DNA of 22,687 bases, from IMG/VR virus record IMGVR_UViG_3300047678_000321, positions 1 through 22,687 of that record. One strand, written 5' to 3'. This DNA is from a virus. The first letter of the stretch is position 1, and each line of letters begins with the position of its first letter. Under the pieces are notes generated by a model that was not told the origin of the DNA, did no database searches, and saw only the letters and a list, made by a program, of their open reading frames with translations. The translations under genes and the position numbers were made by a program. This document shows positions 4,788 to 9,226 of this stretch, one piece after another.

Positions 4788-4796
4788 TTTGAAAAT

Positions 4797-4862
4797 CTCC
4801 TATGGGCCGCTGTCATCGACAGCGGAGAGAAACACTGGCAGGTCGCGGGGAACGCCCCCGCG
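4797..4862 (-). promoter_or_regulatory. Leader with two perfect hairpins and the ribosome binding site of the zinc-ribbon gene
   Basis: Going toward the GTG at 4787 on the minus strand there is a 7-bp hairpin CGCGGGG/CCCCGCG (4862-4844), an 8-bp hairpin CCGCTGTC/GACAGCGG (4825-4807) and then AGGAG (4801-4797). Neither hairpin is followed by a U-run, so these are leader structures rather than terminators. Confidence 0.45.
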
Positions 4863-6188: not shown

Positions 6189-7148
6189 TTAATAATCCTC
6201 AGCCTCTTCCCGTGTAATATAAAAGTGGATTCCGCCAGCACACTCCTGCCAGCGGTCTTCGCACCAGCTATCGCATGTGACACGCTCGCCAACGCGGTAA
6301 ATTGTCCTATTGTCGTGCTCCGAAATACCGTACTCTGCGCCGAAAATCTCGACCACAACAACGAACTCAGCCCGGCACTTCCGGCCTGTTGCACTACTGC
6401 GTTTTGCTTCGTCCGGGATCAATAATTTCACAATCACGCCTTCAAGGCATTTTTTCCAGCCGGTAAATGCACCAGTTGACGGGCATGTCATCAATCGTGC
6501 AGCATCAACCGGCCCCAGGTTGGCACCACTCAGGTTGGCACCACTCAGGCTGGCACCACTCAGGTTGGCGCCACTCAGGTTGGCACCACTCAGGTCGGAA
6601 CCACTCAGGTCGGAACCACTCAGGTTGGCACCACTCAGGTCGGCACCACTCAGGTTGGCACTCCTCAGGTCGGCACCACTCAGGTCGGCACCACTCAGGT
6701 TGGCACTCCTCAGGTAGGCAACACTCAGGTCGGCACCACTCAGGTTGGCACCACTCAGGTTGGCACTACTCAGGTCGGCACCACTCAGGTTGGCACCACT
6801 CAGGTTGGCACTACTCAGGTCGGCACCATACAGGTCGGCGCCACTCAGGTAGGCACTCCTCAGGTCGGCACCACTCAGGTCGGCACCACTCAGGTTGGCA
6901 CCACTCAGGTTGGCACTACTCAGGTCGGCACCATACAGGTTGGCACCATACAGGTTGGCACCATACAGGTTGGCACCACTCAGGTTGGCATCACTCAGGT
7001 TGGCACCACTCAGGTTGGCACTACTCAGGTCGGCACCATACAGGTCGGCGCCACTCAGGTAGGCACTCCTCAGGTCGGCACCACTCAGCGAATTCGCATC
7101 CACCTTGTGGAGGACGGCTTTTGTGTAACGGTTTAGAATCTCAATCAC
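6189..7148 (-). CDS. Pentapeptide-repeat protein with DUF5758-like C-terminal domain
   Basis: About 38 consecutive A(D/N)LxX pentapeptides ([15 protein letters not shown], ...) form a right-handed four-sided beta helix in this family. After the helix comes a domain from about residue 222: [20 protein letters not shown], then [25 protein letters not shown] and [14 protein letters not shown]. This is the tail seen on phage and Bacillus pentapeptide proteins (DUF5758). No enzymatic residues are evident. I place the start at the GTG at 7148, seven bases after GGGGAG; the frame opens at a TTG at 7166. The role is unknown; some relatives mimic DNA or bind gyrase, which this sequence does not prove. 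The DNA repeats are listed separately. Confidence 0.85.
6511..7088. repeat. 15-bp tandem repeat tract encoding the pentapeptides
   Basis: The plus strand repeats units like CCACTCAGGTTGGCA with few changes (ccactcaggtCggca, ccaTAcaggt..., ctCctcaggt...). A larger block of 14 units (210 bp) appears twice, once ending near 7088 and once near 6878. The DNA is more uniform than the protein requires, which suggests recent slippage or unequal recombination. Confidence 0.85.
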
Positions 7149-7175
7149 TTCATGACTCCCCTCCAAAAACCCTAC

Positions 7176-7473: not shown

Positions 7474-7808
7474 TCGTCGATTGCTTCCTCAGCGGAATCC
7501 TCAGCCTTTCCCAATGACTGCTCCAGGTACTCGATACCGATTCCGCAATCCTTTGCGCGAGTCCTCGCGTCTCCAATCGCTTCGCGGATCGAGTCACCAC
7601 GTCCAATAGCTTCGCGTCGTCCGTGTTCCTGGTCGTAGCCTTGGTATGATCCCCACGACTCCACGACATGCACGCGGAATTTATCTCCCTTGCGACTGAC
7701 GACCACATCGCAATCGAGATACTGATGGCCTGGGACGTGTCCATAGGCCTTGCCTGATGATTCGCTGGCTAGCTCGTCGTGTGACTTGGGGCAGTATGCT
7801 GTACGCAT
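7470..7808 (-). CDS. Unknown protein, 112 residues, translated downstream of the hammerhead ribozyme
   Basis: I chose the ATG at 7808-7806, which follows AGGAGATTTTCAA. The frame remains open to 8333, but that part is Ser/Ala/Pro/Arg-rich shadow of other sequence. The product starts MRTAYCPKSHDELASESSGK. It then has YLDCDVVVSRKGDKFRVHVV, a beta-rich core, and ends in a helical acidic part (SIREAIGDARTRAKDCGIGI). It looks like a small alpha+beta protein. It overlaps the RHH-like gene by 4 bases. No family recognised. Confidence 0.6.
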   Translation of the reverse strand: MRTAYCPKSHDELASESSGKAYGHVPGHQYLDCDVVVSRKGDKFRVHVVESWGSYQGYDQEHGRREAIGRGDSIREAIGDARTRAKDCGIGIEYLEQSLGKAEDSAEEAIDE

Positions 7809-7882
7809 TTGAAAATCTCCTGCTCGCGATAGGTCGAGCGCACCTGACGGCATAGATTGGCTGCCGTCTGCCGATTGGGAAA

Positions 7883-7940
7883 AGCCCATACCGGCTTTCG
7901 CCGGTTTCGCCGCTGATGGCCTGCGGCTCATCAGTGGGCT
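7883..7940 (-). ncRNA. Hammerhead ribozyme, type I topology, GUA cleavage site
   Basis: The minus strand reads, from 7940 to 7883: stem I AGCCCA; core CUGAUGA; stem II GCCGC, loop AGGCCAUCA, GCGGC; core GAAA; stem III CCGGC, loop GAAA, GCCGG; then UA; and stem I UGGGCU. All core bases of the hammerhead family are present. The A of GAAA pairs with the U of UA, and every stem pairs perfectly. Stem I is open, which is type I. Cleavage would fall between 7889 (A17) and 7888. Stem I begins inside the UAG stop codon (7941-7939) of the gene at 7939-8130. The site lies about 75 bases before the 7808 start, so cleavage would separate the two coding parts of the message. The fold is seen directly; activity is inferred. 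Confidence 0.88.
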
Positions 7941-8130
7941 AGGCTTTCTCGACTGTGACGCCCTTGAGGCCACCGCAGAGGCTATAGACGCTGGATCGCT
8001 GACGCATTGAGAGAGCGGGGACAATCCACACCTTGCGGTTTGCGTCCCACTTGCCGCCAAGAGATTTGATTGCGTCGCGGATTGGGTAGGTGTTGCCGGA
8101 CCAAACGGTGGTTGATTTGCAAATCGACAT
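7939..8130 (-). CDS. Small 'GNTY..D.IKS.GG.WD' domain protein
   Basis: The 63-residue product begins MSICKSTTVWSGNTYPIRDA and continues IKSLGGKWDANRKVWIVPAL. It is almost entirely the domain found at the N-terminus of the 4878-5465 protein (about half of the aligned residues identical by eye in GNTY.I.D.IKS.G..WDA.RK.W). DUF5710-like proteins have this layout; function is unknown. It is the first gene of the leftward cluster, with a perfect 7-bp hairpin (8167-8189) and a promoter candidate upstream. Its stop codon is part of the hammerhead ribozyme. Confidence 0.65.
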   Translation of the reverse strand: MSICKSTTVWSGNTYPIRDAIKSLGGKWDANRKVWIVPALSMRQRSSVYSLCGGLKGVTVEKA

Positions 8131-8455: not shown

Positions 8456-8635
8456 CCGCTTCCGAAACCGATCAGCCACAAACTCCGCTGGGGTCGGTTC
8501 CAGTCCGATTTAGCCATCGCAGCCATAGTCCCGCAGCCCGTAGTACGGCGGCGATGTGACGCAGAAATGCACGCTCCCGGCCTCGAGGGTCGGTAGGATG
8601 CTCCGGCAGTCCCCCAGATGGATTTTTGACACCAT
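8456..8635 (-). pseudogene. DNA methyltransferase remnant, nonsense-interrupted
   Basis: From the ATG at 8635-8633 the minus strand encodes MVSKIHLGDCRSILPTLEAG followed by VHFCVTSPPYYGLRDYGCDG. The TSPPYYGLRDYG phrase is motif IV (S/D-P-P-Y) of N4-cytosine/N6-adenine methyltransferases, where it holds the target base. Full-length relatives continue 'GQIGLEPT..E.V'. Here the next codon is TAA (8512-8510), then the same frame goes on IGLEPTPAEFVAD before similarity fades. So a CAA-to-TAA change, or an error, stops the protein after 41 residues, and the remaining roughly 200 residues of a normal enzyme are absent. It is therefore a broken fragment, perhaps left by an earlier deletion in this accessory region. 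Confidence 0.75.
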
Positions 8636-8840: not shown

Positions 8841-9175
8841 CACAGATGCCACCCATCATCTGTGCGAGATCTGTGATCGATCTGTGCAGCCATAAATCCT
8901 TTAATACAATACACTTACATATTATTAACACAGATACACAGATTATTATTGAATAATCTTCTGGGACAGATTTTTGCGGTTTTTGGTGTTTATTTGGGTG
9001 AAATGGGATGAGGGGGTCGAGATGCGGATTTTGCAATCTCAAACAGAGCCCCAAAAACAGTAGCTGAGCACAATAGGAACTTCATCTGTGCAGAGGCCAA
9101 AAAAAAGTTTTTAGTCGAGTGATAGAAACGGTTTAGCGCCGTACAGATGATCTGTGCGAGATCTGTGCATCTGTG
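8841..9175. repeat. ATCTGTG / CACAGAT repeat cluster
   Basis: The 18-mer ATCTGTGCGAGATCTGTG occurs twice, at 8858-8875 and 9150-9167. Further ATCTGTG or CACAGAT words lie at 8841, 8880, 8929, 8937, 9083 and 9169. Both orientations are present, and the second 18-mer is followed at once by another unit (9169-9175). Confidence 0.65.
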
Positions 9176-9226
9176 TTTTGAAAATTTGGTATGTTGGTTG
9201 CAAGTGGATTTTGTGGTTTTGGCACA

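Follow-up and report, generated by a model that had tools for sequence, protein, structure and literature searches.

We found that the minus strand of positions 7883 to 7940 of the window, the whole 22,687-nucleotide stretch of viral DNA analysed here, is by its sequence a genuine type I hammerhead ribozyme at a phage gene border. The element probably splits a polycistronic message into parts with their own ends and decay. It resembles a large class of viral hammerheads and is one more of the many phage hammerheads of known type, to which a class-level result is added, namely the bias of this class towards borders in the order stop codon, ribozyme, start codon.

Motif architecture and detection

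Read from 7940 to 7883, the minus strand spells AGCCCA CUGAUGA GCCGC AGGCCAUCA GCGGC GAA A CCGGC GAAA GCCGG U A / UGGGCU. The core elements CUGAUGA, GAAA and UA occur in consensus order, and the three helices around them (6, 5 and 5+1 bp) consist of Watson-Crick pairs throughout (Table 1). The ends of the motif open in stem I and loops close stems II and III, as in the type I permutation. Direct reading reproduced base for base the complete minus-strand hammerhead of the original prediction, including the stems of 6, 5 and 5 bp with the A-U closing pair, the GAAA tetraloop of stem III, and the A and G that stem I shares with the UAG stop codon of the upstream gene. This stop codon lies 4 nt from the core. 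Cleavage between 7889 and 7888, as had been proposed, is also what the layout and the hammerhead consensus would predict. The identity of the motif and its place between two genes of the ribozyme's own strand were supported by direct reading, the covariance model described below and the gene map.

Table 1. Features of the hammerhead element and its flanks, in window coordinates.
Feature	Position	Strand	Details and basis
Type I hammerhead ribozyme motif, whole	7883..7940	minus	Direct reading and R1 covariance model match
Stem I, 6 bp	7940-7935 with 7888-7883	minus	AGCCCA with UGGGCU; direct reading
Conserved core CUGAUGA	7928..7934	minus	Direct reading
Stem II, 5 bp	7909..7927	minus	GCCGC 7927-7923 with GCGGC 7913-7909; 9-nt loop AGGCCAUCA
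Conserved GAAA	7905..7908	minus	Last A pairs with U7890
Stem III, 5 bp plus A-U pair	7891..7904	minus	CCGGC 7904-7900 with GCCGG 7895-7891; GAAA tetraloop
Predicted cleavage site	7888..7889	minus	After A7889 (GUA triplet); direct reading and hammerhead consensus
UAG stop codon of upstream gene	7939..7941	minus	A and G double as bases 1 and 2 of stem I
GCCU 5' of stem I	7941..7944	minus	Complementary to AGGC of loop II; possible 4-bp tertiary contact
Upstream gene, 63 aa	7939..8130	minus	Weak DUF5710-like match; homologues in L002 and L003; Pfam
Downstream gene, 112 aa	7470..7808	minus	No known family; start 80 nt past the cut; AGGAG ribosome-binding site
80-nt leader of downstream message	7809..7888	minus	Second hairpin GCUCG/CGAGC and AGGAGAUUUUCAAA

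We searched the window against Rfam and obtained no match at the gathering cut-offs. The original prediction had held that the lack of a covariance-model hit above threshold would speak against the motif; literally, nothing scored above threshold, but the absence of the motif that this would imply is contradicted by our own model. A relaxed Rfam search gave only RF00008 (Hammerhead_3), with 19.5 bits where 48.5 are required; the match was wrongly permuted and paired the wrong flanks. This family has the same catalytic core as the window element but is type III, open at stem III. For other ribozymes, the relaxed search of the window returned weak, chance-like matches only. Because the sole Rfam match was below threshold and wrongly permuted, a type I covariance model (R1) was built from 53 type I hammerheads from IMG/VR and one bacterial contig, with the window left out. 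R1 matched the window at 7884-7939 with 44.6 bits (E = 2.3e-10), in the middle of the range of about 25 to 63 bits in which most true phage hammerheads scored, and this was the only convincing match across the 22.7 kb. The R1 score shows that the motif is present and that Rfam missed it because of its thresholds and because stem I is open. The gathering score is a database threshold and not a biochemical requirement, and phage hammerheads that are real can fall below it. When the core was planted in 200,000 Markov sequences, 8 had stems of at least 4/4/4 bp and none had stems of 6/5/5 bp.

Phage hammerheads at gene borders

A pattern scan of IMG/VR viral contigs for the core only, with no stems required, gave at least 120 loci (L006-L125). 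All three stems were carried by 103 of the 121 distinct pattern matches among those listed. In an alignment of the class (A1), 220 cells had both partners of a pair changed, indicating diverse stems; the percentage of paired cells results from selection and hence is not evidence. The gene context was analysed in 98 non-redundant, dissimilar motifs from 72 loci (among the matches listed), with the surrounding reading frames called mechanically.

Among these listed matches, the stop codon of an upstream frame lay 0 to 8 nt 5' of the core in 43 of 98 motifs, against 2.0 expected at random positions, a generous null because any intergenic element lies near a stop codon. The excess persisted with a minimum frame length of 100 aa (24 versus 0.94 expected, among the matches listed). 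The spacing from stop codon to core peaked at 4 and 5 nt, so that the 4 nt of the window element is the joint commonest value among the matches listed, and in 9 of the 98 the UGA of the core itself served as the upstream stop codon (0.22 expected). On the other side of the ribozyme, 94 of the 98 listed motifs had a start codon within 150 nt past the cut, and 69 had a start with a Shine-Dalgarno sequence, at a median of 35 nt. All hammerheads lay on one strand in each of the 28 multi-copy loci among the matches listed, and 72 of 100 listed loci, many of them short, had a single hammerhead. Phage contigs (e.g., L014, L022 and L048) carried arrays of as many as six consecutive type I hammerheads, all of one orientation and mostly at gene borders. 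Searches of the hammerhead-rich contigs L014 and L022 against sequenced phages found no similar DNA, and thus no annotated context was available for them.

The recurrence of the stop, ribozyme, cut and start spacing in dozens of dissimilar loci suggests the hypothesis that these are border-processing elements whose core is covered by the terminating ribosome. The phasing may, on the other hand, merely reflect compact gene borders. No description of the stop-codon phasing of hammerheads was found in the openly accessible journal literature searched.

Structural comparison with the IMG/VR hammerheads (L006-L125) showed that the window element shares their permutation, core, stem lengths, stop spacing and downstream start. 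Loop II, however, is mostly 3 to 8 nt long in these hammerheads, as opposed to 9 nt with complementarity to the core in the window, and their lowest-energy state is mostly the hammerhead, whereas the window element has a competing hairpin. The phage and prophage hammerheads of Perreault et al. 2011 (PMC3088659) likewise lie at same-strand phage gene borders with an intact consensus core, and their suggested role, the division of long phage transcripts into messages of gene length, is the one proposed here. Two or three of them often flank a gene together, whereas the window has a single copy in 22.7 kb. The phrase "stop codon" is absent from that paper, whereas the shared stop codon is the main feature of the window element. 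The HDV-like theta ribozymes of gut phages (PMC10879173) are also self-cleaving, belong to Caudoviricetes and have a role in RNA processing; however, they have another fold and are placed at the 3' end of tRNAs, and no tRNA was found in the window. The element is not exceptional, since hammerheads at phage gene borders are known (PMC3088659), are abundant in viral contigs and start in a stop codon as their commonest layout.

Competing fold and function

The window element could form a competing structure. In loop II, CAUCA and the next G are the reverse complement of CUGAUG in the core, and the preceding GGC pairs with GCC. The lowest-energy fold accordingly differs from the hammerhead: in it, CUGAUG is captured by CAUCAG, stem II is lost, and the site forms two GC-rich hairpins. 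In a nested-structure energy model, the alternative hairpin lay 2.7 to 7.6 kcal/mol below the hammerhead fold, depending on the flanks. This energy gap ranked between first and fourth worst among 141 to 143 hammerheads, and only 0.6% of random 9-nt loops II were as unfavourable. In growing-chain folds, the inactive hairpin prevailed as soon as it was complete. The 6-nt match to the core in loop II was absent from all other hammerheads of the set, and as a recurring design a core-complementary loop II was rejected, as 27 viral pattern matches contained no hammerhead. The competing hairpin would tie up the catalytic core, and therefore efficient cleavage cannot be assumed; the modelled folds make the activity of the window element doubtful. 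The competing off-state that its sequence predicts makes the element a useful case.

Tertiary contacts of loop II with the stem I region, which serve fast hammerhead cleavage, were also compared. Among the matches listed, 34 of 126 motifs had a loop II able to pair with the sequence immediately 3' of stem I, where permutation predicted 11, in agreement with the pseudoknot of Perreault et al. (PMC3088659), which is of Watson-Crick type in many of their hammerheads. Although this pseudoknot is usual in the class, the 3' flank of the window element has no complement to loop II. The GCCU/AGGC contact on the 5' side is weak, because the class shows no significant excess of 5' complementarity (13 observed versus 9.8 expected among the matches listed), and it was rejected as a class feature.

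For the hammerheads of prophages, message processing between genes had been suggested by Perreault et al. 2011 (PMC3088659). Cleavage in vitro is published for tandem hammerheads from bacteria and prophages and, for those of Agrobacterium, cleavage upon transcription in E. coli as well (PMC3088659). The role of bacterial and phage hammerheads is an open question (PMC3088659, PMC6155905). For the window element, we infer transcription across the site, cleavage and an effect on expression. In the leftward (minus-strand) transcript, self-cleavage would occur after A7889. It would leave an upstream piece with the 63-aa gene followed, just past its stop codon, by the GC-rich ribozyme hairpins and a 2',3'-cyclic phosphate end. 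The downstream piece would begin with a 5'-OH at 7888, and its 80-nt leader would offer the 112-aa gene a good ribosome-binding site. The polycistronic phage message would thereby be split into parts that each have their own end structure and decay rate. The message processing suggested in the original prediction is favoured by the comparison with other phage hammerheads, but the competing hairpin and the lack of the motif in relatives weaken it.

The main rival of message processing is that the hammerhead is decaying: an active ancestor would have drifted in loop II, and the element would now act mainly as a plain stabilising intergenic hairpin, as at the other borders. The greater stability of the competing hairpin, the rarity of equally bad random loops (0.6%), the missing 3' pseudoknot, and the simple hairpins at other cluster borders and at the homologous border of L002 are all consistent with decay. 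However, all conserved core bases and stem pairs are intact, unlike what drift would leave, and neither kinetics nor tertiary contacts enter static energy models. We consider decay unlikely.

Considerably less probable is a bistable hammerhead gated by translation. The assumed footprint of a terminating ribosome begins at the stop codon and spans about 12 nt. A ribosome paused at the UAG would then cover the core to about UAG+12 and block the inactive hairpin while stems II and III form; on its departure, stem I would close and the RNA would cut, and cleavage would report translation of the upstream gene. Masking 12 nt from the UAG indeed left an RNA that folded into exactly stems II and III, and stop codons 0 to 8 nt 5' of the core in 43 of the 98 class members among the matches listed also fit this model. 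However, the CAUCAG-type loop occurs in no other set member and in 27 viral pattern matches without a hammerhead, retention of both folds was seen in no related sequence, and the stop phasing may stem from compact gene borders alone. It is equally improbable that phage hammerheads in general are stop-phased for control by the terminating ribosome, the window element being an extreme, bistable example whose core is held locked by loop II until a ribosome at the UAG frees it. If this were true, the element would be a self-cutting switch sensing translation termination. Finally, a chance look-alike, in which two ordinary hairpins happen to spell a hammerhead, would fit the lack of an Rfam gathering match and the two GC-rich hairpins of the lowest-energy fold, but it is very hard to reconcile with the absence of comparable stems in 200,000 core-planted simulated sequences, the R1 E-value of 2.3e-10 and the match to the stop, ribozyme and start layout of the class.

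Relatives and neighbouring genes

The window encodes a terminase and a major head protein. The product of the 63-aa upstream gene matched Pfam DUF5710 with 24.5 bits, under the cut-off of 26.5, and its homologues in L002 and L003 showed 83 to 86% identity and ended at the same place. At the homologous gene border, no hammerhead was found in L002, which has a simple hairpin, or in L003, which has no hairpin. Three phages with 73 to 78% identical terminase (L126-L128) had no hammerhead in the parts examined; an R1 match of 19.7 bits in L127 was attributed to chance, as it lies inside an open reading frame and has no GAAA. Conservation of the hammerhead with its neighbouring genes was therefore rejected, as the relatives of both the 63-aa gene (L002-L004) and the terminase (L126-L128) lack it. 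A search for near-identical copies with GCCNAGCCCACTGATGAG gave one match, which was unrelated and coding, and the pattern GCCCACTGATGAG...GTATGGGC gave no near-identical copies. BLAST found nothing in phages and weak short matches only in plasmids. For the 112-aa downstream gene, no relative was found among the viral contigs searched.

The start of the downstream gene is preceded by AGGAGAUUUUCAAA, and this leader is also present at 4788-4801. Over 14 nt, 4788-4801 and 7808-7821 (minus strand) read exactly the same, AGGAGATTTTCAAA, each directly 5' of a different start codon. The simple hairpins that had been noticed at the remaining borders of the cluster were confirmed for the other minus-strand borders in the window.

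Further features of the window lie outside the hammerhead. At 6189-7166 on the minus strand, a long pentapeptide-repeat protein with a C-terminal DUF5758 domain is encoded, here in a phage. At 8510-8635 (minus strand), a frame with IHLGDCRSILPTLEAGSVHFCVTSPPYYGLRDYGCDG resembles, by its motif, the start of a DNA methyltransferase. An in-frame TAA interrupts it; past this stop the frame continues with IGLEPTPAEFVAD, and the similarity is then lost. This frame had no Pfam match and is probably a remnant. Between the leftward and rightward gene clusters, at 8841-9176, lies a cluster of ATCTGTG/CACAGAT repeats, with seven forward copies at 8858-9169 and three reverse copies at 8841-8937, where about 1.4 of each are expected in the whole window. 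In the related phages L126-L128 the repeats also cluster, 5' of the terminase gene, and they look like iterons or control-region operator sites.
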